Source: Nguyenibacter vanlangensis (GTDB lineage Bacteria > Pseudomonadota > Alphaproteobacteria > Acetobacterales > Acetobacteraceae). From it: a DNA stretch of 35,144 nucleotides. The notes below the pieces were generated by a model. It saw only the letters and a list, made by a program, of their open reading frames with translations, was not told the DNA's origin and ran no database searches. How positions within the stretch are numbered: position 1 is the first letter of the stretch; each line of letters starts with the position of its first letter. The position numbers and the translations under genes were made by a program. The stretch lies in contig NZ_JABXXP010000005.1 in the NCBI RefSeq assembly GCF_013376155.1, forward strand, positions 1 through 35,144, given 5' to 3'. This document shows positions 4,986-31,274 of the stretch, piece after piece.

Positions 4986-5600
4986 GGTAGTTCTCCTTGA
5001 TCTCTGTTTCCGAGCCCGCACCATTGCGGCCTCGATGGTGATCGAGAGGCAGGAGGCGATCGACGGCGCACCCGCTTGCGGGCCGCAGCGCTAGCGGAGG
5101 ATGGCAGCCAGGCGACTTTGTTGTTTCGCGAGGAATGGCGGCGCAGCCGGCAGGGGAAGAAAGTCGATCGGTGCCATTGCGCCATAGGCGATCGAGGCTT
5201 CAGCCGGCCTTCGGCCAGATCCATCCATCGAAGAGGCCGTTTGGTGCGCTCGGTCCGAACAGAGTCGACATCAAGCAGGACGTGGTGACGCTCGAGGTGC
5301 CCTGAGAAATCCGCTCAGACGCGACGGCGATCCGAACCCATCCGTGCCGGCGATACAAGACGAAGCTAGTCCCATGCTGCTGCTCGGGCGAGAACGTCCT
5401 GTCCACGACGGTGTTTGTCGAAGCGTCGCGTCAGGCTTCCGCGCTGGGCCTCCCTTGGCTCCTGCGGGCCGCATTACGATGGGGCAAAGCCATGCTCAGC
5501 CGCGCTTCACTGCCCGGGTCAACACAGCACCCTCGGAACGACGGGCTGCGCAGATGAGAAAGGGCCAATCTGGTCTTGCCCTGGTGGTTCTGCCGTGGCG
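4986..5600. other. Gene-poor stretch
   Basis: Between the DUF736 gene and the membrane-protein gene no reading frame has a recognisable domain, a good ribosome site and the codon pattern of its neighbours. The minus-strand frame at 5200-5406 (68 codons) is open but unrecognised, and may be a decayed or unknown small gene. Short GC-rich hairpins occur near 5010-5033 and 5069-5082. Confidence 0.5.
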
Positions 5601-9426: not shown

Positions 9427-11514
9427 CTATTCGGCTGCGATCATGTCCGCGCCGGCGTCGTCATTCTGCGCGACCGGCTCGTCGTCGTCCTCCGGCAGTT
9501 TTTCGCTGGACTGCTCTGCGGCCTCCTCGGCCACAGATTCCGGCGCCGGTTCGGCCACAACGGCGCGGCCAGGCGTGCGGAGCGGGTCGGGCAGCCAGGC
9601 GGTGTCGGCCAGAAGCGTCTCCGCCTCGGCCGCCATGTCGCCCTTCTTCAGATGCTCGATCCGATCGGCAGCGCGCTGGCCCTTCGCCTGAGAAACCGCC
9701 TGAAGGATGCGAGCCTTCGTCACCCGGCCGAGGAAGTTGTCCACGGTCGGCTTCCATCCGGCCGCCGCCATGTCGAGATCGACCGCCTGCGCCAGCCGGT
9801 CGGCATGGGCGGCCGCACGAGGCCGCCGGTTCCAGGGCTCGTACACCGCGTTGACCGAGAGGCTGACGATGTGGGCGAACAGGCCCGCCTGGCTGTCGCC
9901 GTCCCATTCCTGCAAGGCATCCCAGAGATCGGCCGATTCCTTGGGAAGCGCCTTCGACCAGCTTTCGTGCCGCATGCGGATCGCCTCGGCCGAGGCGCTG
10001 TCGTTGAGCCCCGGCGCCTGCGTCCCGAAGCTGACGCTCTTCAGGTCCAGCTCAAGGCAGCTATCCGAGCCATAGTGGTAGAAGGTCTTCAGCGTGAGGA
10101 CGTGCAGGGCCGCGACGAAGGCGATGTCGGGCCGCTCGCCGAGCGCGTAGCGCAGGCAAAGCGTCCGGTGCGAGGTCAGCTCGGTCATCAGACGATCGGA
10201 GATGGGCGAGAGACCCTCGTCCTCCTCCGGCTCGGCGTCAGGCTCAACCGTTACGACGGCCTCGTTGCCCTCGTAGCTGGCGGCGATAGCGCGTTCATCG
10301 TCGCCTTCCGCGTCCTCGAACGCAGGCTCGGCCGCCAATTCGTCTTCCGTTCGGACATAGCCGCGCTCGACGCGAAGCTGGCCGTCGGCGCCAATGCTGA
10401 CGAAAGCGCCTGCGCGCGCGATCTCGGCGGCGTCAAACACCACGGGACGGTTGTCGAAACCCTCGATCAGCGTCTCCAGCTCCGACAGGCGCTCGTCTAC
10501 CTCGTCCGGCAGTTCATCGGCGTCCTGGTATTCCTCGGACAGCCGGTCGAACTCAGCCTGAAGCGCATCGCGGCTCGCCTCTTCCTCGGCGGTCAGCGGC
10601 ACGGCCTCGCCGCGAAGCTGCCGCAGACCGAAGGCGTGGCCATAGGCGAAGTCGGGCGCGACCTCGATCCACTTCCAGCCTTCGGCGGCGATCGCCTCGG
10701 CGTCCGCCTTCAGCTTGTCGGTCACCATTTGGTCCACGAGCGGTACGTCCTGCAACCAGCCACCATCGTCGCCCTGGAACAGGTCGCGCAGCACGGAGCC
10801 GCCCGCCGCGTCATAGGCGTCGAGGCCGATGAACTGCGCCCGCTTGTCGGAGGCGCGGACCGCGCCCTCGGTCAGCATCCGGCGGATGACGTAGGGCTGC
10901 TTGTCATAGGAGACCTTCAGGCGCTCGAACACCTGCTCCTGGCGCTCGTGGTCACCGGACACCGTGAAGGCCATGAGCTGATCGAGCGTCATGCCGTCTT
11001 CGGCGTAGACGTCGAGCAAGGCCGGCGAGACCGACGCGAGCTTCAGGCGCTGCTTCACCACATTGACCGAGACGAAGAAGGCGGCGGCGATCTCCTCCTC
11101 GGACAGCCCCTTCTCGCGCAGGGCCAGGAAGGCCCGGAACTGGTCGAGAGGGTGGAGCGGCGCGCGCTGGACGTTCTCGGCGAGCGAGTCCTCCTCGGCG
11201 ATGCCGCTGTCGCGAACGACGCAGGGCACCGGCGCCGTCTTGGCGAGGCGCTTCTGCTTCACGAGCAGCTCCAGCGCCCGGTAGCGTCGGCCGCCGGCTG
11301 GGATCTCGAACATGCCGGTCTCGACGCCGGCCTGGTCAGTGACGGGCCGGACGCTGAGGCCCTGCAACAGGCCGCGGCGGACGATATCGTCGGCCAATTC
11401 CTCGACCGAGACGCCCGCCTTCACGCGCCGGACGTTCGACTGCGAGAGCAAGAGCTTGTTGAAGGGGATGTCGCGCGAGGGCGAGAGGGTGATCTTCTGA
11501 ACGGTGGTAGCCAT
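9427..11514 (-). CDS. Large ParB/RepB-like nuclease-domain protein
   Basis: The protein has 695 residues from the ATG at 11514. The N-terminal ParB/Srx-like domain is at about 10-120: KLLLSQSNVRRVKAG, then EIPAGGRRYRALELL and EEDSLAENVQRAPLHPLDQFRAF. The ParB helix-turn-helix follows (SEEEIAAAFFVSVNVVKQRLKLA). The long C-terminal part has acidic stretches (EEYQDADELPDEVDERLSELE) and no domain I can name. Proteins of this length with this layout are typical of alphaproteobacterial ICEs and plasmids, beside DUF932 genes. They are thought to act in partition or regulation; CTP binding or nuclease activity is known for parts of the family but not shown here. The start is chosen at MATTVQKITLS, with GGAG about 10 bases upstream. 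Confidence 0.85.
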   Translation of the reverse strand: MATTVQKITLSPSRDIPFNKLLLSQSNVRRVKAGVSVEELADDIVRRGLLQGLSVRPVTDQAGVETGMFEIPAGGRRYRALELLVKQKRLAKTAPVPCVVRDSGIAEEDSLAENVQRAPLHPLDQFRAFLALREKGLSEEEIAAAFFVSVNVVKQRLKLASVSPALLDVYAEDGMTLDQLMAFTVSGDHERQEQVFERLKVSYDKQPYVIRRMLTEGAVRASDKRAQFIGLDAYDAAGGSVLRDLFQGDDGGWLQDVPLVDQMVTDKLKADAEAIAAEGWKWIEVAPDFAYGHAFGLRQLRGEAVPLTAEEEASRDALQAEFDRLSEEYQDADELPDEVDERLSELETLIEGFDNRPVVFDAAEIARAGAFVSIGADGQLRVERGYVRTEDELAAEPAFEDAEGDDERAIAASYEGNEAVVTVEPDAEPEEDEGLSPISDRLMTELTSHRTLCLRYALGERPDIAFVAALHVLTLKTFYHYGSDSCLELDLKSVSFGTQAPGLNDSASAEAIRMRHESWSKALPKESADLWDALQEWDGDSQAGLFAHIVSLSVNAVYEPWNRRPRAAAHADRLAQAVDLDMAAAGWKPTVDNFLGRVTKARILQAVSQAKGQRAADRIEHLKKGDMAAEAETLLADTAWLPDPLRTPGRAVVAEPAPESVAEEAAEQSSEKLPEDDDEPVAQNDDAGADMIAAE

Positions 11515-11529
11515 CGGGATGTACTCCGC

Positions 11530-11596
11530 GACGAGCGCCGAAAGCCTCTCTCTCGACATCAACTCGTCACGAAGCGCAGCGCCGCCCTCTCACTCT
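11530..11596 (-). ncRNA. Structured leader RNA, copy 1 (before the ParB-like gene)
   Basis: On the minus strand this region matches the leader of the DUF932 gene (12964-13032) over nearly 70 bases. It starts with AGAGTGAGAGG and folds into GACGAG/CTCGTC (11563-11568 with 11530-11535) around an 8-bp inner stem with the loop AGAGG. The stems differ in sequence from copy 2, but the pairing is kept. It ends 15 bases before the start codon, so it is probably a cis-regulatory RNA. Confidence 0.6.
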
Positions 11597-11710
11597 GGAG
11601 GGCAGCGCCGCAGAACCGACGATCAGGAAAGAGGAAGGGACTGCGGCTTCCAATCGGCGGGACTTTGACTCCCAATTGGCCGAAGGTGGGAAGGGCGGTG
11701 CGCCGGGCTG

Positions 11711-11746
11711 AAAGCCGGAGATGCACAATTCCGCTTCTCCGGCTTT
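11711..11746. terminator. Terminator-like hairpin after the DUF932 gene
   Basis: AAAGCCGGAGA (11711-11721) and TCTCCGGCTTT (11736-11746) form a perfect 11-bp stem with a 14-base loop, 8 bases after the DUF932 stop. A T run ends the stem in either direction. It separates DUF932 from the leader of the ParB-like gene. Confidence 0.6.
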
Positions 11747-11753
11747 CCGGAAA

Positions 11754-12950
11754 TCAGGCCGCTCGGTCGAGCAGCTTCTTGGCGCGCGCCTCCAGGTCGA
11801 GCCGCGCATCCTGCTGAGTCTTGTCGCGTGCGACCGCGGTGATGCCCTGCACGAAGTCGAACACGCTCTCGGGCTTGCGTCCCTCTTCGGCCAGCACCGT
11901 CTCGATGATCTTTGCCGTCTCGGTCTTCGAGAACCCACGCTTGCGCAGGAAGTCGCTGCGGTCCTCGTCATTACGCGCGACGATCTTCTCGCGCGCCGCC
12001 TTGATGCCGTTGACGAACGGGAGCGGTGAGGAATTGGCGAACCGCGTCAACGCCGGCGCGGCCTCATGGGCGAAGCGCGTGGCGGCGTATTTCGAGTGGC
12101 GGATTGTGATCTCCTCGAAATCCTCCACGCCCCAGAGATTTCGGTTCTGGCAAACGGCGCGGAGATAGAAGCTGGCCATGCCAAGCGTCTTCGCGCCCAC
12201 CTCCGAATTCCAGCAATAGAAACCACGGAAGTAGAGGTCGGGCGAACCGTCGGGCAGCCGGCCGGCCTCGATCGGATTCAGATCGTCGACCAGGAAGAGG
12301 AAGACGTCGCGATCGGACGCGTAGAGCGTGGAGGTGTCCTGGGTGATGTCGACGCGCGGATTGTAGATGCCGGTCGACCAGTCGAGGACGCCCGGCACCT
12401 TCCAGCGGGTGTCGCCTGTGCCGTTGCCGGCGATGCGCTGCACGGCCGCGACCAGCTCATGATCGAAGATGCGGCCATAGTCGGGCCCGGTGACGGCGCG
12501 CAGCTCGACGCGGCCATCTTCGATTTCGAGCGTCTTCACCTGCTCGGCGCGATGCGAAGTCAGGCCATATTGCAGGTTGATGCCGGCCAGCGGCGCGGGA
12601 AGCTGACGCAGATAGGCCGCCGGCGCGCCGACCAAACCGGCGAGCTGGCCGAAGCTCCAATGCGTCGGCGCGATCGGCGTGTCGGACCCGGGCAGCATCA
12701 GCGCCAGGCGCTCGGTATCGTCGCGGCTCGCCTCGACCCGGATCGCCGCGCTCTCGACGGTTCGGGTCCGGCTCCGCTCGGTCCGGCCACGGACGGCGGC
12801 ATAGAGATCCGACAGGGACAGGTAGCGCTCGTCCGCCGGCCGCGAAAACCATTCCGATGTTACCCGGCCGATCCGCTCGCCGCGGCTCACATCCACCTTG
12901 TAGCCGCCAGCGCGCTCGCGAGCGGGGTCCAGAATCTCCACATGTGTCAT
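11754..12950 (-). CDS. DUF932 family protein
   Basis: The protein has 398 residues. The DUF932 domain covers about 90-330, with HWSFGQLAGLVGAPAAYLRQLP early, RAVTGPDYGRIFDHELVAAVQ in the middle and FYCWNSEVGAKTLGMASFYLRAVCQNRNLWG near the end. The family is phage- and plasmid-linked (YfjQ/YubP-like) with no proven reaction. A role in DNA handling after transfer is usually assumed. The start at 12950 (MTHVEILDPA) is chosen because it follows the structured leader at the same kind of spacing as the ParB-like gene; an ATG at 12963 is in another frame. The shared leader suggests co-regulation with the ParB-like gene. A terminator hairpin follows the stop. Confidence 0.87.
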   Translation of the reverse strand: MTHVEILDPARERAGGYKVDVSRGERIGRVTSEWFSRPADERYLSLSDLYAAVRGRTERSRTRTVESAAIRVEASRDDTERLALMLPGSDTPIAPTHWSFGQLAGLVGAPAAYLRQLPAPLAGINLQYGLTSHRAEQVKTLEIEDGRVELRAVTGPDYGRIFDHELVAAVQRIAGNGTGDTRWKVPGVLDWSTGIYNPRVDITQDTSTLYASDRDVFLFLVDDLNPIEAGRLPDGSPDLYFRGFYCWNSEVGAKTLGMASFYLRAVCQNRNLWGVEDFEEITIRHSKYAATRFAHEAAPALTRFANSSPLPFVNGIKAAREKIVARNDEDRSDFLRKRGFSKTETAKIIETVLAEEGRKPESVFDFVQGITAVARDKTQQDARLDLEARAKKLLDRAA

Positions 12951-12963
12951 GGCTAGTCTCCAT

Positions 12964-13032
12964 GACGGGCGCCGGAGGCCTCTCCTCCAGCCTTCAACCC
13001 GTCACGGCGAAGCCGGTCCGTCCTCTCACTCT
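12964..13032 (-). ncRNA. Structured leader RNA, copy 2 (before the DUF932 gene)
   Basis: This is the second copy of the leader at 11530-11596. It starts with AGAGTGAGAGG and has an outer stem GACGGG/CCCGTC (12998-13003 with 12964-12969). The inner 8-bp stem is GCTGGAGG/CCTCCGGC (12984-12991 with 12971-12978), with the loop AGAGG identical to copy 1. Compensating changes between the copies keep all pairs. It ends 14 bases before the start codon. Confidence 0.6.
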
Positions 13033-13071
13033 AAAAGGGGCGTTGCGGGATCTCCCCGCAGAAGGGGGGGC

Positions 13072-13111
13072 GTCGGCGACCGCGGCGCCGACCAGGGGGA
13101 AGGCTTTCCCC
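13072..13111 (-). terminator. Possible terminator hairpins after the DUF3883 gene
   Basis: Two perfect stems lie 20-60 bases beyond the DUF3883 stop: GGGGAA/TTCCCC (13096-13101 with 13106-13111) and GTCGGCG/CGCCGAC (13072-13078 with 13086-13092). Neither has a T tract on the minus strand, so the call is weak. They mark the border between the defence block and the DUF932 gene. Confidence 0.3.
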
Positions 13112-13131
13112 ATTTATCCCATGTTCAGTTC

Positions 13132-13965
13132 TCAGTAGAAACTAGCCTGGAACGTTATCGCCGTCAGCGAAACGTGGGCATCCAGCGGTGGATATAGCTC
13201 GAATGCCTTTGGTTGGCGCGAGAAGTTCCAAAGCCGGAAAAGGCACCACTCGGTACGCCTCTGATCGGCGACCGTCAATTCGTTGCGTGTGATTTGAAAG
13301 GGGGTGCGTTCCCAGCCGTTGGTGGTTTTGACCTCGATCAAGCGTGGACGGCCGTCGATTGTGAAACTTGCGATGTCATAACCCAACCCATCACCCTCCT
13401 CCTCTGCCACCCAGCGTACCTTACCGGCAAGGTCATCGCGGCCTGCATTCTTCAGCATGGCATGCTCATGCCCCAACACGCATTCTTCGCCAGCTCGTCC
13501 AAGAGTACGATTGCGCTCGTCTCGCGCCGCAACGTCGAACTTTCGAGCGATTTTGAACGTCTGCTCCAGTTCCTGCGGTGGCGGCTGGTTCGAATGTGTC
13601 GGTGGAGGCCCCACCCAAATCAGAGATGCCTCGGATAGTCCGGATTCTGGACGCGTGCTTGGATTCCTGGCCAGCCAACTCGGATTCCGCGCAAGCCACC
13701 GTACTACTGCATCGACTAGCGTCATCTGAAAATGGAAGGCCGGCTTGTAACCAGGAATCCAATCCTCGCCAAGCCCCTTGAGTACCGCGCTGATATTCTG
13801 GTGCTTGAACTCTATCGACTTTCGAGAGCGGCCGATTTTCTCTTGCATCCGCTGGTTATGTTCGGACTTGCTGTAGGGCACATGAGCGACGTCATTAGCC
13901 AGCATCGCGAAGTAATCCGCGACGATCGAGTCGTTCTCTTCGTCCGTCCAAGGCCCTTTTGACAT
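13132..13965 (-). CDS. DUF3883 (PD-(D/E)XK-like) protein
   Basis: The protein has 277 residues. The C-terminal half (about 150-260) looks like DUF3883: LGRAGEECVLGHE, then GDGLGYDIASF and RPRLIEVKTTNGWERTPFQITRNEL. The D...EVK pattern matches the active site of PD-(D/E)XK nucleases. The N-terminal part (PWTDEENDSIVADYFAML and IEFKHQNISAVLKGLG) looks like a Myb-like helical DNA-binding region. The linker holds an exact tandem heptapeptide, WLARNPS twice. DUF3883 proteins are frequent in defence islands, often beside helicases or restriction genes. This one ends the minus-strand defence block, 169 bases after the PIN-like gene; whether it belongs to the same transcript is unclear. Nuclease activity is inferred from the motif only. 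Confidence 0.75.
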   Translation of the reverse strand: MSKGPWTDEENDSIVADYFAMLANDVAHVPYSKSEHNQRMQEKIGRSRKSIEFKHQNISAVLKGLGEDWIPGYKPAFHFQMTLVDAVVRWLARNPSWLARNPSTRPESGLSEASLIWVGPPPTHSNQPPPQELEQTFKIARKFDVAARDERNRTLGRAGEECVLGHEHAMLKNAGRDDLAGKVRWVAEEEGDGLGYDIASFTIDGRPRLIEVKTTNGWERTPFQITRNELTVADQRRTEWCLFRLWNFSRQPKAFELYPPLDAHVSLTAITFQASFY

Positions 13966-14985: not shown

Positions 14986-15747
14986 TTAGGCCGGTCGAAT
15001 CACTTTCGTCTCGATCAATGCGTACAGATGATCACGTAAACTGGAGGGGACATGGCCGCCAGTGAGCAGAAGCCCTGCCTCCATGTTCTTTTCGAGTGCG
15101 TGTCCAGTGAGGTTGGCGCTCGTCACGAATGCAACGACACCATCAGCAACGGCCACCTTCGCGTGAACTCGACCGTTGGTGAACGGATGCGGCCGGTCGG
15201 TCCAAACATACAATTTGGCCGAAGGAACGGCGTTTCTCATCGTCGATACCGGATCGACGAGTAAGCTGCCGCCTTGGGTCACAGAGGCTTCGACGAGAAT
15301 TCGAGTGTCGACTCCTCGAGCGATGGCCGAGTTGATCGCGGCTATGATCGATGCAACATCATAGGCGACGAAGCTCACGATAAAGAGTTCCTTCGTCACC
15401 CTTTGGATTACGTCCAGGAGCACCTGTTCGGTTCGACGGGGGGCAACGAATGGTGTCGTCGGTCCAGTCCAGACGAGCTCGACATCGCATTCTTGCTGCA
15501 TGCGCTGCCGGGTATGGGCGGCAGCCAGCAGCATTCCGGCCACGACGTCTCCGGACAACGCAGTACCCCGCCAGGCTGTCACGAACGATTCCAGGGCCGC
15601 ACGGGCAGCCGGTGTGCCGACGATTTGCTGAAGCTCTTGTTCCCGAACCGATGGAGAAGCGCGTCGCAGCCGCGATGCGATCGCTTCGATCTTCGCGGGT
15701 GACAACAAGGCAGCCAACGCCGCGACCGCGTCCAGGAGCGATCCCAT
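14986..15747 (-). CDS. drmC: DISARM DrmC, phospholipase D-like protein
   Basis: The protein has 253 residues from the ATG at 15747, which overlaps the last base of the drmB stop (TGATG); a longer frame to 15858 would lie within drmB. One HKD motif is visible: HAKVAVAD, giving His195, Lys197 and Asp202, followed by FVTSANLTGHALEKNMEAGLL. The first half of the fold has VSFVAYDVASIIAAINSAIARG. PLD-like proteins of this size with one HKD are expected to dimerise to form a nuclease active site. In DISARM, DrmC is a core gene, though reported as not essential for protection in the system first studied. It is the last gene of the overlapping operon. Confidence 0.85.
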   Translation of the reverse strand: MGSLLDAVAALAALLSPAKIEAIASRLRRASPSVREQELQQIVGTPAARAALESFVTAWRGTALSGDVVAGMLLAAAHTRQRMQQECDVELVWTGPTTPFVAPRRTEQVLLDVIQRVTKELFIVSFVAYDVASIIAAINSAIARGVDTRILVEASVTQGGSLLVDPVSTMRNAVPSAKLYVWTDRPHPFTNGRVHAKVAVADGVVAFVTSANLTGHALEKNMEAGLLLTGGHVPSSLRDHLYALIETKVIRPA

Positions 15748-17588
15748 CACGAGTTCCGGAAAAACGCGGCGCTTGAGTTTTCGAGCGTTGGAACCACCAG
15801 AGCCCGGTCGAGATGCCGATTGCCTCGCTCGCAGGACGTCTCCGACACGAAGGAGCAAGCATGGCAGGCCGCCCCGTGCAGCGATTGATCCTTGTTGGGG
15901 TCATGCTCGGAGCACAGGGGATCCGAGGCGCAAACGTGGGCTCGGTCCAAGGCTTGGCGAAGGAGCCGTCCGAGGTTCTCCGGCTTGCCCAATTCGACCA
16001 AACCGCCGAGCGTTCCGTCGGAATCGGCCGCCGCCGTGTAGATGAGGAACCCGGCTTGATCTTTCTCTTCGTCGATTTCCGCGTAGATCCTTTCGCGGAT
16101 GCTGGCCGCGTTATACCCGCATTCGAGAGCCAGCTCTCTGATCAGCATGTGCGCCAAGGTGTGCAGCAACACATAGCGCACGCCGGGATAGCCTTCTCTC
16201 GGATCGAGATTCCGTTTTTGACGCCACCCTCGATGTCCCATGCGTAAGCGAGCGTCGACGTCCTTGACCGCATTCTCGTCGGCCCATGATTTCAGCGCAT
16301 CGGCATCGAAGCGAATGAAGATGCCTTCGCCGTGGACCTGTGTCGCCGGTACCCAATCGGGAGCTGAACGTCCGAGCGGAGCCCTCGGCGCCGCATCGTC
16401 ACCCGATCCCTCGTCCGGGGACTCGACGCGGGTGAAACCGAGCAGAGCATTCACTTCGCGCAGCCGCTCCAACAGCAAGACGCGCGTGATCGCCGTTTCG
16501 AAGCCCTTCGGAATCCCGACCTTCTTGCTCATGAAATGGGGATAGTCGGTGGGCGGATCGTCTGCGATCAGAACCTGCCATTCCGGCTCTTTGAGGTCGC
16601 TTTGTCCGACATCCGCCCCTCCGCTTCGGTGGGCTTGGATGGCCGACCAAATCTGATCGTTGGAGAATTGGTCGATACCAGGAAGCTGCGCCGTCTTTTT
16701 GAGGGTCTTGACGACGAAACCAACCTCATCGGCCGACGAGACATCCTCGAAGAACGTCCAGCCGTCGCCGACGAGTTGTGCGAGAGGACTGCCCGTCTTG
16801 GGGATGGCGAGGACCGACAACGTGATGGGAAACCAGCCATTGGTCGCGCCGAGCAGAATCGCTCGCGGGTCTTCCGGGCAATCTTCGTCGAAACGATCAA
16901 TGTGCGGATGCCTGCCGCGGCACGCGGGCAGATTGTCCCTGCCAGCCTGACCAAAGGCTTGAGCCATGTTCTTCGACGCGCCGCAGGCGTCGCACTTCAC
17001 CCAGAGGTTCTCTGTTTGAAGCGATGCGCCACTTTCGAAGAACCGTAGGGTCCCGCGACAGTCGGAGGGGCCGCCATGAACGAACCAATGCCACGGAAAA
17101 TCGTCCAGATGTCCGGCGCGGCAAGCCGTCAGGAAGCGGGCCGGCACGGCGTCGGCGTCACGGGCTCGCTGATCGTTGTTCGAGCCCCGGCATCCCTCAT
17201 GGACGAAGCGGGTCAACTCCGGGCGGTATCGGTTTTCTTTCAGCTTGAACAAACCGGCATCGAACGGCGACAACAGCCCGCATTTCACGCAGCGCAACCA
17301 TCTGGGAAACGGCTTCACTGGAACGCCGATAAGGGCGGCCGGAGAGAACGGGTCGACGACGTCGCGCTCGCCGATCGGCGGCATTCGCAGTGATTCTACC
17401 TGAGGCCCGAGAACGCTGCGGACGTTCGCCAACAGGCGCGCCTCCTGTATGGGCTGGCATCTATCCCTCTCCCATCGGTCGATCCCCATGGTGACGACCG
17501 AGAGATTGGGCAAATCGACCAACGCGCCAGGACCGTAGGTCCACAGAAGCTGGCTCGGACGGACTTCCCCGACGGGCGTCTTGCTCAT
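15747..17588 (-). CDS. drmB: DISARM DrmB, DUF1998 protein
   Basis: The protein has 613 residues, and its ATG overlaps the drmA stop by 4 bases. The start carries VGEVRPSQLLWTYGPGALVDLPN, a typical DrmB opening. The DUF1998 domain is at about 475-595, with LLHTLAHMLIRELALECGY, GFLIYTAAADSDGTLGGL and the cysteine-rich tail. Cysteine pairs (C100/C103, C199/C202, C575/C578, with C553, C559 and C586) suggest structural metal sites. DrmB works with the DrmA helicase; the DrmAB complex binds DNA with a free 5' end and is thought to be unlocked by incoming phage DNA. Length and neighbours match the DISARM core. Confidence 0.93.
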   Translation of the reverse strand: MSKTPVGEVRPSQLLWTYGPGALVDLPNLSVVTMGIDRWERDRCQPIQEARLLANVRSVLGPQVESLRMPPIGERDVVDPFSPAALIGVPVKPFPRWLRCVKCGLLSPFDAGLFKLKENRYRPELTRFVHEGCRGSNNDQRARDADAVPARFLTACRAGHLDDFPWHWFVHGGPSDCRGTLRFFESGASLQTENLWVKCDACGASKNMAQAFGQAGRDNLPACRGRHPHIDRFDEDCPEDPRAILLGATNGWFPITLSVLAIPKTGSPLAQLVGDGWTFFEDVSSADEVGFVVKTLKKTAQLPGIDQFSNDQIWSAIQAHRSGGADVGQSDLKEPEWQVLIADDPPTDYPHFMSKKVGIPKGFETAITRVLLLERLREVNALLGFTRVESPDEGSGDDAAPRAPLGRSAPDWVPATQVHGEGIFIRFDADALKSWADENAVKDVDARLRMGHRGWRQKRNLDPREGYPGVRYVLLHTLAHMLIRELALECGYNAASIRERIYAEIDEEKDQAGFLIYTAAADSDGTLGGLVELGKPENLGRLLRQALDRAHVCASDPLCSEHDPNKDQSLHGAACHACSFVSETSCERGNRHLDRALVVPTLENSSAAFFRNS

Positions 17589-20500
17589 GTGTCACTCCCA
17601 TCCGTTGGGGTGACGCGGGCTCGCCAGGTTGGATCGCTCGTCGAGCGCGAGTCCTCCATCACCAGCCTCACGCCGGGTTCGACCTCACGCATCGACATCG
17701 GGACGGTCCAATCCGTCCACGGCTTCACGCCTGGAGCTTCCAACAGGGGATACGCGGTCGGGCCTGCCCCATACTTCTGATAGACGAGCGTCCGGCCTCC
17801 GACGCCCGCCTCTTTGGCCCAATCGTCTGCGCGCTGCTTCAATTCCTGCTCGGTCAGCGATTTCTTGGCAGAGTCCTCGGTGACTTCCCATGTCCGCTCG
17901 GCCACGACACCGATCGTTGTCAACATCTCTGGTCGGCTCGGGCTGTTCATCGCCCCCGCCCCGGTGTTCGGGGCGAACGGGTCGTACATGTTGCGCATGA
18001 TCGACAGCATTGCCCCCGTGAGGCCACGGTCCAACGCCCGCGGTGAGAACGGCGTCACGGATTGCGCTTCGACGTGCTGATAGAAGGTCGCGTGGTAGTG
18101 CTCGAACGTCTCGTAGTGGGAGAGGTCGCGCGGACGCGCCCAGGTGAGGACGGTGGCGACCAAGCCCGGCGGCGTGCGGCCGACGCGGCTGGTCGCCTGG
18201 ATATACTCGGCCGTTCCCTTCGGTTGACCGTTGACGACCATCACGCCGAGGCGGTTCACGTCGACTCCGACCGAGAGCATGTTGGTGGCCAGCACGACGT
18301 CGATCGGGCGCGGGTCGCCCGGAGCCCGGTTCTCGATCCATTTCCCCGTCGCGGGGTCGAACGTCCCGTTGAAGGGGATTTCGAGCTGATCGAGATAGCG
18401 CGGGATGTCGTGACTTGAGACACGGGACGTCAGTTCGCGGACGTCGTCGACTCGCCGCTGCGACAAGCCTGGCCGATCGACGAGGCTCATGGCCACGCGG
18501 AAGGATCGCGTCTGAACGTCGTCTTCAGCGAGGCGCTTCATTCCGCCCAGCTCGCGCAGCGAATTGAAGTAGCCGACCAGCGTCATGTAGGGGTCGGCGA
18601 CCGGACCGAAGCGGTCGAAGAGAGCCTGCGCTGCGGTAAGGAAGGCCGTGTACGTCCGGATCAGTACCGCCGGGCGAGAGCTGCCGGGCGCGCATATGCC
18701 CATGTAGCGGCGGCCGGGCTTCCCTTCGATGCACCGCTGGACGGAGAAGAAGTTGTCCTCGACGTCGAGACCGGATGGCGGAAAGACCGAAATCCTCCGC
18801 ATGAACACGTTGCGCACCTGATCTTCGGCGCGCCGGACGGTCGCGGTGGACGCCACGACCTTCGGCCGAACCTTGGTGTCACCGAGGGGCCAGGTGCTCA
18901 GCTCGTCGACGGCGCTCTCATAGAGGCCGACCATGGTGCCGAGCGGGCCGCTGATGAGGTGGAACTCGTCCTGGATGACGAGATCGGGAGGCCGCAGAGC
19001 GGCTCGCACCGGCTTCACCTTCGCTGCGGGATAAGCACCTCGCGCGCGATGGCCCGTGCCGCAATCGTGCCCCGGCCAGAGCAAGCCGTGACGCTCGCAT
19101 TCTTCCTCGACCCGGCCGAAGAGGGTTCGGACTTCCGGTCGCCAGGCCATCATGGCGAACTTGTCGACGGTCGCGATCATCATCGTCGGGGGGCGATGGT
19201 AGATTTCCTCGTCGACCACCTTCACGGGCAATCCGGGGTGGGCGAGCCCGCTGGAGCCAGCTCGCGAGAATTCGCAGGTGCCGAGCTTGTCTCCGCAATG
19301 GATGAGGGTCCGGCCGAGGATTCTGTCGACCTCGATGTCGCGGCCTGCGGAGATCTCCGAGCCGCACCAAGGACAGCTCGTCAATTGCGCAGGCGACGCG
19401 ATGCCAACGCGATTTCGATCACCGTTGCGCAGTGCTTCGATCGCCTGGTGGGCGTCTTCTGTCCGGCCCGGCGTCACTCTGTTGCCGACCCACAATCCGA
19501 GCGAGAACGGCTCCTTACCCCAGGTGTTCTCGTCCCGGCGACGGATCACTTCCATCGCGCACAACAGGGCAGTCGCACGCTGGAATTGCTGCAACGTAAG
19601 GAGACGCAGCGTGTAGCGCATAATGACGGCGAGGCCGCGCGAGGCGTCGAGGCCGCCGAGGTCGTTCTTCAGGCGACGCATCGCCATGGCGAAGGCGGCG
19701 ACGCCAAGATAGGCTTCGGTCTTACCGCCACCCGTCGGAAACCACAGCAAGTCGGCGAAGGCTTCCACGGGCTTCGTTCGATCGGGATTCGCCGGGTCCG
19801 CGAGCGAGGGCACCGACAAGAGGAGGAAGGCCAACTGGAAGGGCCGCCAGGATCGGTTCCTCGGGATGTCGATCTGCGAGACATCGGCGGCCTCGCCCCG
19901 CCGGCGCTTGAGGGCATAGAGGCTCCGCACACGCTGTAGCGCCATGGACCTGTTGGCGAAGCGAAAGGCCGTCAACGCCGCGTCGTCGGAAAAGAGCGTG
20001 TTCATCCCTTCGCGAAGGCGGCGCAGGGTTTCTTCGCATCGGACGATCACGTCCCGGCCCGGATCGTCGAAACCCGTGATCTCGCCCTTCAGCCGCGCCC
20101 GCTGCTCCTTGATCCAGACGGCATAGTCGTCGACCAGGCACGACAGAGCATCCCGCAACTGCTGCGGCTCCATCTCGGCGAGGCGGCCCATGTCGAGCCA
20201 ACCCTTGTCGACCATCCTGCGCATGGCCGGACGGTCGCCGGGGTCGAGGCCCGGCGTCTCCGTGACGGCCACCTCGTAGCGCGGGACGATTTCCGTTCGG
20301 ACGCGCCAAGCCTTTGCGGAATCTTCCGGTGTCGCGTCGGCGTGGACCGACACGCCATGGCCGACGGCGAATTCCAGCCGATTGCGGTAGATCAGCGCCA
20401 AGCGATCACGTTCGGGATCGTCGACGACGATTTCATTGGAGGGGCGCCGCCTGAAGATCGCCTTGTCCGCGGCGCCGTTCGGCGCCGTCGCGGCGATCTC

Positions 20501-21565
20501 CGGCTGAAACAGCCAGGCGCGATCCTTGTTGTCCTCGGGCTCCAATTGGCCGTTCACCAGGAACAGGGTGACGAGGCGCTCTCCCTGATCGTTGGTCCGG
20601 ACGGTCCCTTGCAGCCTGACGTCGGGCTGGTCGCGATCTGGAGTCGACGGCTTTATCGGCCCATCCTTCAGCGGCAGGGGGACGACGCCGCCGCACGGGA
20701 TGCGTCGCCACACCTTGACCTTCGTCTCTTCCTCTTTCCCGGTCGCCCGATTCCTCCGGGTCTTGACCACGTCGTGTTCGTCACTCGGGACGCGCTCGTA
20801 ACGCCCCCACCGAACCTCGACCGCGAGCGAGTCCATGCCCTGCGCGACGCAGAAAGTGAGCCCCAGGCTGGAGGGCACGAGCGATTGATTGTTCGTGGTG
20901 TCGATCTCGTCGAGGGCGTCATCCTCGGGCTCTACGCGGCCGGAAGCGCTCGCGAATTCGGCGCCAGGTTCGTGGATGGGCGCGGTTCGTTCATCCTCGA
21001 TGTCGCCGATCTCATCGGCGGCAGCCGCTGGCTCGACGAGGATGGTCTCGCCATCGTCTGGCCGGCGGGGTGCGAGTTTCCCGACCAGATAGCGGTCGCG
21101 AACGCTCATATCCTTGATTAGCTCGTGCGGCCCGCCGGCAGGGCCGAGAAGATCATCACGGACAGCCACTTCGAGCAGATCGCGCACATAGGCGACGTTC
21201 TGGATGAGCGGAACGGCATCGATGTCGGAAATCCCGACCGCCTTCGCTGCGCGCAGGAAATCATCCCAAGGAAGGCGGTTGATCGGTCCGGTGGGGGCAG
21301 TGAGACCCAATCCGCTCAACGGTGTCGGCGACACGACGACGTGGAGCTTGTCGAAATAGAGCGTGGTAGCTTCGAGGTCGGTGCGGATGCGGAGGATGCG
21401 CCCAATGCGTTTCAGGGCTCCGGCCGCGTCCACGACGACCACCCAGTGGCCGGGAGCGATGGCGCCGCCAATGCGATCACCGTCGAGCCGAACGACGAAC
21501 GGGCCGAGCGACGTCGCGTCCTTGGCGAGCCATGCCTGTGCGTTCGGTGCGGTGGTCGTCGTCAT
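17585..21565 (-). CDS. drmA: DISARM DrmA, superfamily 2 helicase
   Basis: The protein has 1326 residues. The helicase core has Walker A TGGGKT at 611-616 (context LLWFPTGGGKTEAYLG), a DEFH box at 866-869, and motifs V/VI in LATNMLSVGVDVNRLG with QATSRVGR at 1123-1130. A CPWC pair (731-734) with C757 and C764 between motifs I and II may bind zinc. The first 550 residues are the DISARM-specific N-terminal region. DrmA is the motor of the DrmAB complex. It follows the methyltransferase-like gene by 18 bases, with a weak ribosome site, and overlaps drmB by 4. In ordinary class 1 DISARM it would follow drmMI directly, so the two genes in between are the unusual part. Confidence 0.94.
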   Translation of the reverse strand: MTTTTAPNAQAWLAKDATSLGPFVVRLDGDRIGGAIAPGHWVVVVDAAGALKRIGRILRIRTDLEATTLYFDKLHVVVSPTPLSGLGLTAPTGPINRLPWDDFLRAAKAVGISDIDAVPLIQNVAYVRDLLEVAVRDDLLGPAGGPHELIKDMSVRDRYLVGKLAPRRPDDGETILVEPAAAADEIGDIEDERTAPIHEPGAEFASASGRVEPEDDALDEIDTTNNQSLVPSSLGLTFCVAQGMDSLAVEVRWGRYERVPSDEHDVVKTRRNRATGKEEETKVKVWRRIPCGGVVPLPLKDGPIKPSTPDRDQPDVRLQGTVRTNDQGERLVTLFLVNGQLEPEDNKDRAWLFQPEIAATAPNGAADKAIFRRRPSNEIVVDDPERDRLALIYRNRLEFAVGHGVSVHADATPEDSAKAWRVRTEIVPRYEVAVTETPGLDPGDRPAMRRMVDKGWLDMGRLAEMEPQQLRDALSCLVDDYAVWIKEQRARLKGEITGFDDPGRDVIVRCEETLRRLREGMNTLFSDDAALTAFRFANRSMALQRVRSLYALKRRRGEAADVSQIDIPRNRSWRPFQLAFLLLSVPSLADPANPDRTKPVEAFADLLWFPTGGGKTEAYLGVAAFAMAMRRLKNDLGGLDASRGLAVIMRYTLRLLTLQQFQRATALLCAMEVIRRRDENTWGKEPFSLGLWVGNRVTPGRTEDAHQAIEALRNGDRNRVGIASPAQLTSCPWCGSEISAGRDIEVDRILGRTLIHCGDKLGTCEFSRAGSSGLAHPGLPVKVVDEEIYHRPPTMMIATVDKFAMMAWRPEVRTLFGRVEEECERHGLLWPGHDCGTGHRARGAYPAAKVKPVRAALRPPDLVIQDEFHLISGPLGTMVGLYESAVDELSTWPLGDTKVRPKVVASTATVRRAEDQVRNVFMRRISVFPPSGLDVEDNFFSVQRCIEGKPGRRYMGICAPGSSRPAVLIRTYTAFLTAAQALFDRFGPVADPYMTLVGYFNSLRELGGMKRLAEDDVQTRSFRVAMSLVDRPGLSQRRVDDVRELTSRVSSHDIPRYLDQLEIPFNGTFDPATGKWIENRAPGDPRPIDVVLATNMLSVGVDVNRLGVMVVNGQPKGTAEYIQATSRVGRTPPGLVATVLTWARPRDLSHYETFEHYHATFYQHVEAQSVTPFSPRALDRGLTGAMLSIMRNMYDPFAPNTGAGAMNSPSRPEMLTTIGVVAERTWEVTEDSAKKSLTEQELKQRADDWAKEAGVGGRTLVYQKYGAGPTAYPLLEAPGVKPWTDWTVPMSMREVEPGVRLVMEDSRSTSDPTWRARVTPTDGSDT

Positions 21566-21583
21566 GCGTGGATTTCCATCTCT

Positions 21584-22624
21584 TTACAGCTCCACTCGCG
21601 AGAAGTGCGGGTACAGCCGGTAGAATTTCTTGAACACGTCGACGGGGTCGACACCCAGCTTGGACTCGATGACCTTCGCGAGGTCGAACCCGAGCTTATT
21701 GTGCGCGTTGTTGTTCGACTCCATCGTGAGTCGTTCCAGCGAGGACAGCGCAGGCAGCTCGATTCGGTGGGGCTCGTCGGGAGTTGAGTAGAACTCCCAT
21801 CCCTCGATCAACTTCTCGGTGGCCGTGTCTTCTCGAGAGACCACGATCAGAGTCGCCGTCACCATTGGCTGATCATCGGCGTAGTGCGTCGCCAGTGCCC
21901 AGACGATCTGGCGGTCGGTGAAGCTCAGAGCCTGCTTCTCGACGGCCAGCTTCAGCACCTGGAGAAGTGTCGGGCCATACTTCTTGTGCATCATGGCGTC
22001 GGCGGTCAGCCCGGCGGGCACGAGCGTACCCAGCCGCTGCTTGAACTGCTCAAGGCGCCACTCGGCCTTCGTCGGCTTCTGGGCTCGGTCGGCAGAGACG
22101 TCGCCATCGACCTCGACGGAAAGGTCCTTCCCGGACGGCTCCTCTCCACCGCTGCCGAGCGAAGTCGGGTTGCCGTTGAGCGTCACGCGCAGGACGCTTC
22201 CGACCGGCACTGTCCCGACAGTCGCAGCGAAGCGCTGGATCTGGGAGGCGATGCCCTTGGGCGCGGTGTAGTCGAACCAGATGATGGCCGGCGTCGTGAA
22301 GGTCGTCTGGTCGAGGAACTTCTCGAGGGTCGAGTGGACGCACTTGATGGCGGCCACGGGGCGGTTGAACCGCTGTCGCTTATGGACCTCCTCCTCGGAC
22401 TCGATGCAGGTCAGCTTGCCGATGGTGCGGCGCTTCTTCTTGCTACCGATCCCGATGCGAGAATGCACGAGGCGGAAGTCTTCGAGGAACGGGCCACCAA
22501 GGCTCACGTAGTGGTACTTCTCGAGCCCGAGCCTCGGGGCGAGGCGCATCAACAGCGAGAGGAACAGCTCTCGGTCGACCGCCTTATTCGGCCGAAGCCG
22601 GTATGGTAGTGAAGACCCACTCAT
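21584..22624 (-). CDS. Rossmann methyltransferase-like protein inserted in the DISARM operon
   Basis: The protein has 346 residues. Its N-terminal half follows a class I methyltransferase order: YHYVSLGGPFLEDFRLVH (37-54) in place of motif I, CIESEEEVHKRQRFNRP (73-89) with an acidic residue at the end of strand 2, and IIWFDYTAP (114-122) in place of motif IV. I recall proteins with this pattern annotated loosely as O-methyltransferases near GHKL ATPases in defence loci, but I cannot name the family. The C-terminal half is helical and mixed, with FKKFYRLYPHFSRVEL at the end. It starts 3 bases after the GHKL stop, so the two are surely a pair. The motif I glycines are fewer than usual, so it may bind SAM weakly or have another role. 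Confidence 0.6.
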   Translation of the reverse strand: MSGSSLPYRLRPNKAVDRELFLSLLMRLAPRLGLEKYHYVSLGGPFLEDFRLVHSRIGIGSKKKRRTIGKLTCIESEEEVHKRQRFNRPVAAIKCVHSTLEKFLDQTTFTTPAIIWFDYTAPKGIASQIQRFAATVGTVPVGSVLRVTLNGNPTSLGSGGEEPSGKDLSVEVDGDVSADRAQKPTKAEWRLEQFKQRLGTLVPAGLTADAMMHKKYGPTLLQVLKLAVEKQALSFTDRQIVWALATHYADDQPMVTATLIVVSREDTATEKLIEGWEFYSTPDEPHRIELPALSSLERLTMESNNNAHNKLGFDLAKVIESKLGVDPVDVFKKFYRLYPHFSRVEL

Positions 22625-22627
22625 CGA

Positions 22628-24046
22628 TCAGGCCCCCTTCTTGTTGGCCTTCACGAGTTGGATCTCGAAGCACTTGTCGCCGACGATGCCGGGCTTCTCG
22701 TTCGCGTCGTCGAAGAGCATCGTCGACACTGCCCGCACCTCTTCCGCAGAGCGCGAGAAGACGATGCGACGGGCCGACGGCGTGCTGCCCTTCGGCTCGG
22801 GCAGCGCGCCCTTCACCTTGCGCGGATCGAACTCCAGAGCGTCGCTGCCCTTCTTGCTGGTCACGCGCGGAGAGACCGCTTCGATCGCCTTGCTCAGCGA
22901 CATCGGCTTGGCGTCGGACCAGTGGCTCGCTTGGTCTTCGCGCGGGTGGTTCTTCCACTGGTTCGTGTACGAGATCCAAACCCGCATGCCCTCCTTCATC
23001 TTGACGAGGGACTCGAGCCAGACGTTCGATGACGTGTCGAGCGCGCGCTTCGTGGTCGTGACAGGCAGCTTCTTCGCGTCCTTGGCCCGGAACTCGATGA
23101 TGCCTGTGATGACGATGAACTGGTCGTGGTAGAGCGGGATGCCGTCGCCCCAGCCCGTCAGGCGGTTCTTGTCACCGACGATGACCGCGCGGTCGTTGCA
23201 GAGTACGGTCCATCCCGCGGTCGCGGAGTTGCGCTGGCCTGCGAAGTCGCCGTCTTCGTCATCATCGTCAGAGTCGTATTGGCGGCTAGTGTTCAGGCCG
23301 ACGGTTATGGAGACGAGCACTCCGTCGATCGTTTTCTGGTAGACGTAGGGTGCTGGGCCGTCCTTGCGCATGGAGACGAGCACCTCGACGTGAACGGGCT
23401 TCACCGCCTTACCATTGATCTCGATCTTGAGGCCGCGCTGCAGGAACATCGTGAAGTGGTGGGAGATCGCGGTCTCCACCTCGTTCACGAACGCGGCGTT
23501 GGAGAAGTGTTTGGCGACGCCCGGGTAGAGATCCTTGACCACGATCGTGGTGCCGGGCTTCGAGAGCTTCTCGCTGGCACTGCTCGGAACCTTGATCGGT
23601 AACTCGCTCCACTCCTTATCGTCGAGCCACTTCGAGTCGATGTGAACCTCGAAGGTGTCGTTGCCATGCCGCGTCTTCACGAGCGCATCGGTGCCCATCT
23701 TGAAGAGCGCACGCTTCATGCCGACGCCGTACATGCCGATCGTCTCGGTATCTGCGTCGCGCTGGTCGTCGGCGTCGCGACCCATCTTGAACGCATATTT
23801 GATGGCAACGTCGCGAGGGATGCCGCCGCAGTTGTCCTCAATGGAGAACTGGTCCTTCGAGAGCTTAATCCTGACGTAGTGCTTCGCATATTCGACGTCG
23901 TTGCCGTTCGCGAGGCGCAGCGCGCCGTCGAGGCAGTTGTCGATCAGGTCGAGGATCGCGTCATCGAGGCTGATGTCGCGGGTCAGCATGGACACGAAGA
24001 ACTGCTTGGTGGGCACCGCTTTCGCGGTGTCGTTGCTGAGCTTCAT
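22628..24046 (-). CDS. GHKL (Hsp90/MutL-type) ATPase inserted in the DISARM operon
   Basis: The protein has 472 residues from the ATG at 24046, which overlaps the drmMI stop (ATGA) with GGAGGA 8-13 bases upstream. The Bergerat ATP-binding fold is clear: N box DAILDLIDNCLDG (Asp33 to Asn37), G1 box IEDNCGGIP (Asp71), and G2 box IGMYGVGMKRALFKMG. A transducer-like region follows, and the C-terminus carries an arginine/serine-rich stretch near SARRIVFSRSAEEVRAVSTML. GHKL ATPases clamp shut on ATP binding. In phage defence they are known in several systems as sensor or effector ATPases. It is paired with the methyltransferase-like gene. Neither is part of the described class 1 DISARM core, so its role in this operon is unknown. 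Confidence 0.85.
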   Translation of the reverse strand: MKLSNDTAKAVPTKQFFVSMLTRDISLDDAILDLIDNCLDGALRLANGNDVEYAKHYVRIKLSKDQFSIEDNCGGIPRDVAIKYAFKMGRDADDQRDADTETIGMYGVGMKRALFKMGTDALVKTRHGNDTFEVHIDSKWLDDKEWSELPIKVPSSASEKLSKPGTTIVVKDLYPGVAKHFSNAAFVNEVETAISHHFTMFLQRGLKIEINGKAVKPVHVEVLVSMRKDGPAPYVYQKTIDGVLVSITVGLNTSRQYDSDDDDEDGDFAGQRNSATAGWTVLCNDRAVIVGDKNRLTGWGDGIPLYHDQFIVITGIIEFRAKDAKKLPVTTTKRALDTSSNVWLESLVKMKEGMRVWISYTNQWKNHPREDQASHWSDAKPMSLSKAIEAVSPRVTSKKGSDALEFDPRKVKGALPEPKGSTPSARRIVFSRSAEEVRAVSTMLFDDANEKPGIVGDKCFEIQLVKANKKGA

Positions 24047-31100: not shown

Positions 31101-31274
31101 GTCGATCGAAGCCAACCGAATGAGGTGGCGTTTGGGCAGACCAGGGGCGACCGAGCCGTCCTCCACTTCAGAAACGATCCATTGACGCCGGCGAGCTTCC
31201 ACCAACTGGCCGGGCTCGGGGATGGTGTGATGCGCTATCTGTGCGGCCGCGCTGCCAGCCCCCCTGACGATCAC
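28152..31274 (-). CDS. drmD: DISARM DrmD, SNF2-family helicase
   Basis: The protein has 1040 residues and starts with GTG, overlapping the vsr stop by 4 bases (GTGA). The helicase core has Walker A DDVGLGKTIEAG (GLGKT at 152-156), DEAH at 263-266, motif III FLTATPHDG near 298-304, and the C-terminal motifs LATDAASEGIDLQ and QRNGRIDRHGQR (616-627), the SNF2/RapA pattern. A coiled-coil-rich region of charged residues follows (about 690-1000). DrmD defines class 1 DISARM and lies directly before drmMI, as here. It is thought to move along DNA and support recognition or restriction. Nothing appears broken or truncated. Confidence 0.93.
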   Translation of the reverse strand: MIVRGAGSAAAQIAHHTIPEPGQLVEARRRQWIVSEVEDGSVAPGLPKRHLIRLASIDEDALGEEIEVLWELEPGAHVIERAGLPRITGLDDPDTLQAFLDAVQWGAATNADRAYLQAPFRSGVSIEDFQLDPLVRAIDMARTSLLIADDVGLGKTIEAGLVVQEMLLRHRARTVLVLCPASLQEKWRAEMQEKFGLDFRIVDTEFVKHLRRERGLHANPWTSFPLLITSMDWAKQGEGLRLFRDALPPSVTHPRKFDLLVIDEAHNVAPTVGHYAVESLRTRLVRLLAPHFQHKLFLTATPHDGYTESFTALLELLDDQRFARNVLPSEPQRARVMVRRLKSDLVDASGNRLYPVRRLEALGVNYAEDERDIRHLLGDYISSRERGEKGARAVDRFVHQLLRKRLSSSPAAFATTLERHVATIEGRIAADRGQRKLDERILRRAISKAEEDYADDAQREMAEEEAIGEASKHARPPDERERLMLQRLRSWAQQASHKEDSKARAILEWLAKHLQVDGQWTDERVILFTEYRTTQQWMHQILAAHGFGGDRLALIYGGMDYDERETVKAAFQASPKESPVRILLATDAASEGIDLQNHCHLMIHLEIPYNPNVMEQRNGRIDRHGQRSGEVVIWHPVDDEGDHGEDILRALRKLNAMRADMGSVNPVIAPQLPDLIEGRRRDLDTRLAEARMEKSRRFVRAERDLRERIAKLHERLAETKREQNLAPDHVERSVRTALRLSDKPDLEPVSLPGALDGSVFRMPALSGSWSRCLEGLEHPYTKKVRPITFDHDVAKGRDDVVLVHLNHRLVQMSLRLLRAEIWARDDVKKIHRVTARSLPDGRLEAPTVVVVSRLVITGGSHHRLHEELTEAGGYLRDAGFRREERVTELRRWLQESKPAALPDTTFAALRTRFDKQRDSVLAAVEARSKDRLRFLSNSIDTRREKESDDIRQVLDDLDKALRAELVADREPQQLSLFSEDERTQLRRDHAALEARLARIPLEREQEVRAIENRYSNVRDHTFPVAVVLLVPDSLTTERTT

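Follow-up and report, generated by a model that had tools for sequence, protein, structure and literature searches.

The window, i.e., the whole 35,144 nt stretch of the Nguyenibacter vanlangensis genome analysed here, carries two copies of a leader RNA on its minus strand, one ahead of a ParB-like gene and one ahead of a DUF932 gene, and these belong to a conserved RNA family whose structure is almost certainly under selection. Taken as a whole, the best explanation is probably that of cis-acting leader RNAs which control the initiation of translation, with the Shine-Dalgarno (SD) sequence occluded and a trans-acting factor shared by the genes. Among its components, control of translation by the leader is very probable, and the proposal that a shared factor reads the upstream motif AGAGnnAGAG and the hairpin loop is slightly favoured.

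On the minus strand, the DUF932 gene (11754-12950), named after the annotation of its relatives and without Pfam or NCBIfam matches at E <= 0.001, is followed by the ParB-like gene (ATG at 11514, end at 9427), which has a ParB_N domain (Pfam PF02195) and sub-threshold matches to NCBIfam ParB models. In both leaders, which are 74-76 nt long, the order from 5′ to 3′ is the purine motif AGAGTGAGAGG, 12-14 nt, a two-part hairpin with the loop AGAGG, the SD sequence GGAG, 7-9 nt, and the ATG. The ParB-like leader, as spanned by our covariance model R1 (11524-11597, minus strand), has the motif at 11586-11596, the main hairpin at 11525-11573, where UUC pairs with the GGA of the SD sequence, and the SD sequence at 11524-11527, 9 nt from the ATG. 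The corresponding features of the DUF932 leader (12958-13033, likewise on the minus strand) are the motif at 13022-13032, the main hairpin at 12960-13007, where CC pairs with the GG of the SD sequence, and the SD sequence at 12958-12961, 7 nt from the ATG at 12950. The main hairpins were delimited by folding and covariation, the motifs and SD sequences by inspection of the sequence.

Each leader has a further hairpin upstream on the same strand. The one of the ParB copy, predicted by folding at 11577-11610, is GC-rich and represents the second strong hairpin of this copy, with the purine motif occupying its tip and 3′ arm, so placed that the first half of the motif is at the tip; among the 161 distinct ParB leaders, 117 have an upstream hairpin that folds at -10 kcal/mol or below. 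On the DUF932 side, the hairpin TGCGGGGAGATCCCGCA, recognised from the sequence at 13041-13060, is possibly part of the leader, and similar hairpins accompany 36/125 DUF932 and 14/33 ArdC leaders, 1/161 ParB leaders and 0/16 leaders of a family of proteins of about 180 amino acids (the ~180-aa family).

Both copies are found where the earlier note had described a duplicated leader with compensating base changes, and they lie on the minus strand. Its count of five changed pairs among the eight of the inner stem is exact, two of them being changed on both sides (A-U/G-C) and three on one side via G·U, and the outer stem shows one compensatory change from A-U to G-C between the copies. The folds are better than those of dinucleotide shuffles, with z of -4.4 for the ParB copy and -2.9 for the DUF932 copy, and none of 200 shuffles was as good in either case. 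The copies do stand directly ahead of the ATG, as had been noted, but at a distance of 7-9 nt and not 14-15 nt, because the structure extends to the GGAG at 11524-11527 and 12958-12961. Co-regulation of the ParB-like and DUF932 genes through the common leader, also proposed in that note, is a sound inference.

Within the window, the motif alone is weak evidence, as two matches with at most one mismatch compare with 0.65 expected, and 14 of 100 shuffles reach two; the proof of the leader therefore comes from its relatives. In the 3.9 Mb assembly of the same genome (88% complete), AGAGTGAGAGG occurs just at the two positions given above. A scan of genomes with the DUF932 protein gave at least 585 related stretches, and the analysis continued with the best 80 (83-96% identity). 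The model R1 (75 positions, 19 pairs) was built from 30 seed leaders, two being the window copies and 28 coming from 27 loci of this set, and the seeds match it by construction; the remaining 53 loci supplied none. Scores of the window copies, each one of the 30 seeds, are 80.3-80.4 bits (ParB-like) and 83.6 bits (DUF932), and the best match elsewhere in the window does not exceed 10.7 bits. An R1 leader stands ahead of DUF932 in all 80 loci and ahead of ParB in 78; as for the other two, locus L027 ends within the leader and gives a partial match, and L035 has a leader, which does precede a ParB gene. The search of relatives with a covariance model, which the earlier note had suggested building from the two copies, found the leader at related loci.

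The paired positions covary in these relatives well above the level of slid and shuffled controls, and together with the matches at the related loci this strongly supports the selected RNA structure common to both leaders that had been postulated from the two copies. In the alignment of the 30 leaders, 94.2% of the cells are paired, and this falls to 35-48% if the partner strand is slid by 1-3 columns. Double changes affect 9 of the 19 pairs (shuffle mean 4.2) and 30 cells (shuffle mean 9.3, with 0/500 shuffles as high). To avoid an alignment fitted to the structure, 333 distinct leaders were aligned on sequence alone, with 17 distinct rows (those without an ORF and classes cl3 and cl4) excluded. 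Over 21 pairs, 90.7% of the cells were paired, compared to 33-57% in slid versions, and 399 cells showed double changes, compared to 54-124 in the slid controls, which weigh most here since related sequences inflate such counts. Compensatory changes beyond chance are thus combined with a fixed place just 5′ of start codons on the coding strand, as expected of a structured cis-regulatory leader RNA. The two leaders of one locus are also more alike (identity 0.730) than leaders of different loci (0.699; 0/5000 permutations, 77 loci). Co-evolution of the pair within a locus was considered and dropped, the partial correlation being just 0.20 after DUF932 protein distance is taken into account, so much of the likeness within a locus is shared descent.

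In regard to the question of which nucleic acid folds, a fold of the sense strand leaves G·U mismatches and a fold of the other strand leaves A·C mismatches. Over 19 pairs of the 333-leader sequence-only alignment, G·U outnumbers A·C by 1166 to 115, and over 21 pairs by 1330 to 255, one of the added columns being shifted by an extra base of the reference copy; alignments fitted to the model, which biases towards G·U, gave 1100 and 86 for 328 distinct leaders. Such an excess indicates that the sense strand, i.e., the RNA, folds. Likewise, the gene strand of 81 sources contains AGAG..AGAG 158 times (7.8 expected) and the complement CTCT..CTCT 18 times (8.5 expected), and together with the G·U bias this strand-biased motif shows that the leader acts as RNA.

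These observations bear on two explanations at the DNA level. The first is that of a DNA operator or another site of protein binding (a nucleoprotein site), such as inverted repeats on which the ParB-like protein autoregulates. The presence of inverted repeats and the position ahead of the parB-like gene would suit it; however, the arms change in compensation while the loop stays, and the G·U bias, the strand-biased motif and the fixed position on the SD sequence also speak against it, making it very improbable. We consider equally far-fetched a single-stranded DNA promoter of the Frpo/ssi kind, in which a hairpin formed by the transferred strand during conjugation recruits RNA polymerase for early expression of establishment genes. 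The gene content (ArdC and others) and the several copies per element do resemble Frpo/ssi arrangements, which according to PMC11541004 stand ahead of anti-defence genes in leading regions. On the other hand, the hairpin ends on the SD sequence 7-9 nt before the ATG, leaving no room for a transcript start together with an SD sequence, and on the template strand the G·U pairs would turn into A·C mismatches. The stem is also GC-rich, and a search of window positions 11400-13200 with the sigma-70 consensus revealed no sigma-70-like site; what directly follows the stem is an SD sequence and an ATG, and a duplex resembling -35/-10 elements with a start downstream was not seen in the folded strand.

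The relation of the hairpin to the SD sequence instead points to translation. GGAG lies directly 3′ of the stem, and the ATG is 7-9 nt beyond the leader in 350 of the 363 matches with a classified gene, under a start-codon rule that favours an ATG 3-15 nt away and leaves 15 of 378 matches without such a gene. The SD bases pair with pyrimidines that precede GUGACGGG. In the 30-leader alignment, the pairs of the SD bases G, G, A and G are kept in 28, 30, 23 and 28 leaders, respectively. In the 333-leader alignment, those of the two first G's are kept in 301/333 and 314/331 cells, and those of the A and the last G in 136/322 and 191/319, in columns shifted by the extra base of the reference. Predicted probabilities of being unpaired are 0.08, 0.09, 0.29 and 0.19 for the four bases in 350 distinct leaders, compared to 0.31, 0.34, 0.59 and 0.55 after shuffling everything 5′ of GGAG (five shuffles each); for the A in DUF932 leaders the value is 0.45. 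According to these folds, the pairing of the GG is solid and that of the remaining SD bases likely, i.e., a predicted pairing with a conserved partner is found for the GG and, in a weaker form, for the A and the last G. By default, the SD sequence is therefore predicted to be occluded, which we regard as likely, and the occlusion may be partial because the stem, at whose foot the SD sequence sits, is very stable (the mean fold energy of the main leader classes is about -34 kcal/mol).

The location of the SD sequence also leaves the idea that the loop itself serves as one without support, since this role falls to the GGAG on which the stem ends, with its GG paired in most copies; the conserved purines of the loop look more like a recognition site. 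Several other elements were considered and abandoned. An upstream pairing that could free the SD sequence (an anti-antisequestor) was too weak to claim, as the energies of the segment between the motif and the anti-SD pyrimidines were little better than those of base shuffles, namely -3.5 vs. -2.4 kcal/mol for 95 DUF932 leaders, -4.8 vs. -3.4 for 10 leaders of the ~180-aa family, -2.4 vs. -2.4 for 85 ParB and -2.8 vs. -2.8 for 27 ArdC leaders, with 18 leaders without the anchor excluded. A mini-ORF upstream (GTG-ACG-GGT-TGA) is by eye not conserved, many copies reading GTTGG or GTTTGG. Neither window hairpin is followed on its 3′ side by the U run of an intrinsic terminator or attenuator. Two terminator-like sites were found, both away from the leader hairpins.

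The purine signature recurs in most leaders. Exact AGAGnnAGAG is found in 249 of 350 distinct leaders and missing in 101, its middle dinucleotide being of 13 kinds among the 249 (most commonly TG in 108 and GA in 64), and GAGAG lies within the loop region of 305 of the 350. Furthermore, the signature occurs on other stems. In an annotated Haematobacter plasmid, two weak R1 matches (13 and 14 bits) precede a DUF6878 gene and a methyltransferase/helicase gene, called strawberry-notch in relatives; their stems are very different in sequence, but each leader carries AGAGnnAGAG upstream, GAGAGA in the apical loop or close to it, and CGGAG ahead of the ATG. A scan of 183 sources for AGAG..AGAG followed by GAGAG and then by GGAG with an ATG gave 231 places, comprising 219 known leaders, two R1 matches in locus L260 and 10 others (two of identical sequence), and eight control motif sets gave 0-2 places beyond the known leaders. 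A scan of seven plasmid loci that additionally demanded GAGAG inside a predicted hairpin loop gave 14 places, 10 of the R1 type and four with unrelated stems, the latter before DUF6878 and helicase genes on two plasmids of Rhodobacterales. With eight control motif pairs, the numbers of places were 0, 0, 2, 1, 0, 0, 0 and 0, and this stricter scan misses leaders, such as every R1-detected leader of locus L279. Of 12 stem-variant leaders that were folded, nine have the SD G's paired, in some cases to a different partner, and the other three (L208:5037, L208:4152 and L233:1477) leave them open or half open. Across leader classes, the constant part is the purine signature and the hairpin, not the stem sequence, which is what would be expected if a factor read the motif and the loop.

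Two alternatives do without such a factor, or replace it with RNA. The leader could be a constitutive element of low translation or mRNA stability, or a ribosome standby site at which GAGAGG contacts the 3′ tail of the 16S rRNA. Stable 5′ hairpins can indeed protect mRNA, and AGAGAGG can pair with the alphaproteobacterial 16S tail. Nevertheless, the middle dinucleotide varies with no trend seen by inspection towards a better anti-SD match, and a recognised signal better accounts for a purine motif that recurs ahead of unrelated genes as well as on unrelated stems, leaving this explanation unlikely. Less probable still is a CU-rich or antisense small RNA of the element or the host that would switch the leader by pairing with its AGAG motifs. 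The two purine segments, of which a loop exposes at least one, would be natural targets, but CTCT..CTCT reaches only about twice the chance expectation, with several occurrences at one ParB coding position, and is not convincing as a trans-acting complement within the elements, and no exact complement of AGAGTGAGAGG exists elsewhere in the same genome (assembly 88% complete).

With respect to its distribution, samples of genomes gave R1 matches in at least 29 of 385 for the class of the window, in at least 34 of 398 for the phylum, all 34 in that class (own genome counted in both), and in at least 75 of 292 for the order to which a hit genome (G331) belongs; the samples overlap, and strict filters make all these counts lower bounds. 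In its own genome, a third copy is present on another contig, before another ParB homologue. Among 378 matches, which include overlapping loci and leave out three of the weakest of one 163-match set and the partial match of L027, the following gene codes for ParB in 168, DUF932 in 130, ArdC in 32 and the ~180-aa family (two subgroups) in 24. The rarer genes are those of a small unknown family (3), RadC (2), AlpA (1) and DUF6878 (1), and the rest consists of one match each for two unknown families, three other ORFs and 12 matches without an ORF by our rule. When each distinct leader is counted once, there are 364, of which 161 belong to ParB, 124 to DUF932 and 31 to ArdC; the names ArdC, RadC, AlpA and DUF6878 are based on Pfam. 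Motif and loop are lost in the matches of the small unknown family and in the two before RadC (19-21 bits), and these leaders may be degenerate or chance. A plasmid leader of 46 bits (L259) also precedes a gene annotated as RadC, its protein belonging to the ~180-aa family, and one Aquibium plasmid (seen as L263 and L282) has a leader of 39 bits before DUF2958.

More distant homologues often lack the leader. Among plasmid homologues of DUF932 with 72-82% identity (24 listed, sampled across the range), it is present in three of 11 sampled, and among plasmid ArdC homologues with 39-55% identity in none of six sampled of 40 listed, the closest one (85%) being outside the sample. As to homologous leaders lacking the pairing, which the earlier note had named as evidence against a selected structure, the eight more distant DUF932 homologues come under this heading, as they lack the leader altogether. 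Since it is missing in distant DUF932 and ArdC homologues, these genes can work without it, and its absence from many homologues means that the leader belongs to particular element lineages and not to the genes as such. Several of the leaderless homologues carry another hairpin shortly 5′ of the SD sequence, and two of four folded clearly beat shuffles.

Regarding the mechanism, we propose that the mRNA folds into a long hairpin of two parts, the 3′ strand of which continues into the SD sequence GGAG, with conserved pyrimidines on the 5′ side pairing with at least its GG, so that initiation would be restrained by default. The bipartite AGAGnnAGAG upstream and the tip loop (AGAGG or GAGAGA) would make up a signature common to the leaders, which is most likely recognised by a single trans-acting factor. 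This factor, probably a protein of the element or the host that binds RNA, would tune the translation of the establishment and maintenance genes of the element together. Structure, covariation, the folding strand, position and gene spread are results of sequence analysis; repression, the factor and coordinated timing are what we infer from them.

It is conceivable, although rather doubtful, that this represents an element-wide translational regulon for invasion, where one signal, made of AGAGnnAGAG and a purine loop on an SD-occluding stem whose sequence changes freely, precedes anti-restriction, partition and helicase genes and is read by an element-encoded repressor. The repressor would silence these genes in an established host and would be absent in a new recipient, hence the genes would be released immediately, a zygotic induction controlled on RNA instead of DNA. 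Use of the leader for this particular purpose is unlikely. Such a reading has a functional logic, given that ArdC of the plasmid R388 is described in PMC7213743 as required in recipient and not in donor cells, and that anti-defence genes of the leading region are expressed early in recipients, there via ssDNA promoters, according to PMC11541004.

Irrespective of the factor, the results present a widespread leader-RNA family for which no Rfam entry was found and whose gene set includes ArdC. They suggest that translation is the level at which establishment genes are coordinated in a large group of conjugative elements from Alphaproteobacteria. The leader is now available as a defined RNA bait for seeking the putative factor, and as a tag by which uncharacterised genes of establishment or anti-defence can be located, such as those of DUF932, DUF6878 and the ~180-aa family.

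Comparison with known RNAs returned no identity for the leader. With Rfam 15 at the gathering cut-off, no family matched at a leader in the window and 16 other loci, and the matches away from leaders were tRNA (window), RT-13 (13 loci) and the cobalamin riboswitch (three plasmid loci). A known family with a different fold, which the earlier note had allowed for, was not encountered above the cut-off at the leaders examined. A permissive scan of seven further loci (E <= 1) gave none at leaders. In that of the window region (E <= 10), a match to mir-922 which overlaps the ParB leader on the other strand (11579-11649) was dismissed as being at chance level (16.4 bits with a cut-off of 95, E 5.6). 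No description of the leader was found in open-access full text, among the matches listed.

Several known systems resemble the leader in part. The radC RNA motif lies before radC and anti-restriction genes. Like the leader, it is a structured RNA of Proteobacteria as described in PMC2864571, and it differs in its model (RF01754), which has 149 positions compared to 75 in R1. As an identity for the leader it was rejected, as none of 20 leader-bearing genomes had a match above the cut-off (40 bits), ten weak matches in these genomes were all away from leaders, and it was absent among the permissive matches (E <= 10) of the window region. TRAP, known from Firmicutes, binds (G/U)AG repeats, and its sites share with our leaders the repeated GAG triplets, whereas the leaders have fewer triplets, another spacing, and one set in a hairpin loop. 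In the ROSE-type RNA thermometers of Alphaproteobacteria, a leader hairpin also pairs with the SD sequence; they differ from the leaders in sequence and genes and from their folds of about -34 kcal/mol, and no ROSE match appeared in the Rfam scans. The Frpo/ssi promoters, which PMC11541004 presents as hairpins repeated in front of the anti-defence genes that conjugative elements carry, are DNA promoters, in contrast to a sense-strand fold on an SD sequence with no promoter-like site found.

Leaders that occlude the SD sequence and RNA regulons are known kinds, and we could find no match for the present variant, in which a single signature sits on exchangeable stems ahead of so many unrelated mobile-element genes. 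The binding sites of CsrA/RsmA proteins, including the plasmid-encoded RsmQ, are similar insofar as a protein reads a short purine motif in hairpin loops and near the SD sequence of many mRNAs, as PMC9928087 describes. Their core A(N)GGA, however, is found neither in the conserved loop AGAGG nor in the upstream motif AGAGnnAGAG, so this core is not a conserved feature of the hairpin loop here; at the SD sequence, it fits many DUF932 copies (AUGGAG) and not the ParB copies (GCGGAG). RsmQ, in the account of PMC9928087, nevertheless provides a precedent for a plasmid-borne translational regulator.

Upstream of the leaders, a further hairpin, TGCGGGG..CCCCGCA followed by ACGCCCC, lies on the minus strand at 13041-13060 of the window and is also found in relatives; it precedes 36 of the 125 DUF932 leaders and 14 of the 33 leaders of ArdC genes. 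The leader RNA may thus extend further out, with this hairpin as its outer domain. At the other end of the DUF932 gene, immediately past its stop codon, the hairpin AAGCCGGAGA..TCTCCGGCTT (11710-11747) was observed, and by eye it appeared to be present in many relatives; it may be a processing site or a weak termination site.

In L117 (G066:C1), the leader at 2537-2611 is followed by an ORF with an ArdC N-terminus continuing into other sequence, which by eye resembles a conjugation ATPase of the TrbE/VirB4 type, so that this ORF may be a fused or recombined gene. In L202, the leader-bearing region contains an Rfam match to the RT-13 RNA (5184-5253, 79.7 bits).

Directly upstream, the leader-bearing genes of the window are adjoined by a PDC-S36 candidate (13132-13965) and a DISARM defence set (DrmC, DrmB and DrmA, 14986-31274, minus strand) assigned by PADLOC, with the helicase gene at 28152-31274 matching both DrmA- and DrmD-labelled models. 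Since TIR, nuclease and ThiF-type genes occupy the equivalent position in a Bradyrhizobium plasmid (L260), this position looks like a hotspot for defence cargo. The element may have integrated at a tRNA gene close to the window end (34161-34232, minus strand).

The leader is absent from the DUF932 genes of plasmid homologues from rhizobia and relatives (L264-L270), and from an IncW ArdC gene (L277). Several of these loci carry a GCCCGG..CCGGGC-type hairpin with T's a short distance before the Shine-Dalgarno sequence (in the DUF932 cases no more than about 70 nt from the ATG), perhaps an analogous attenuator.
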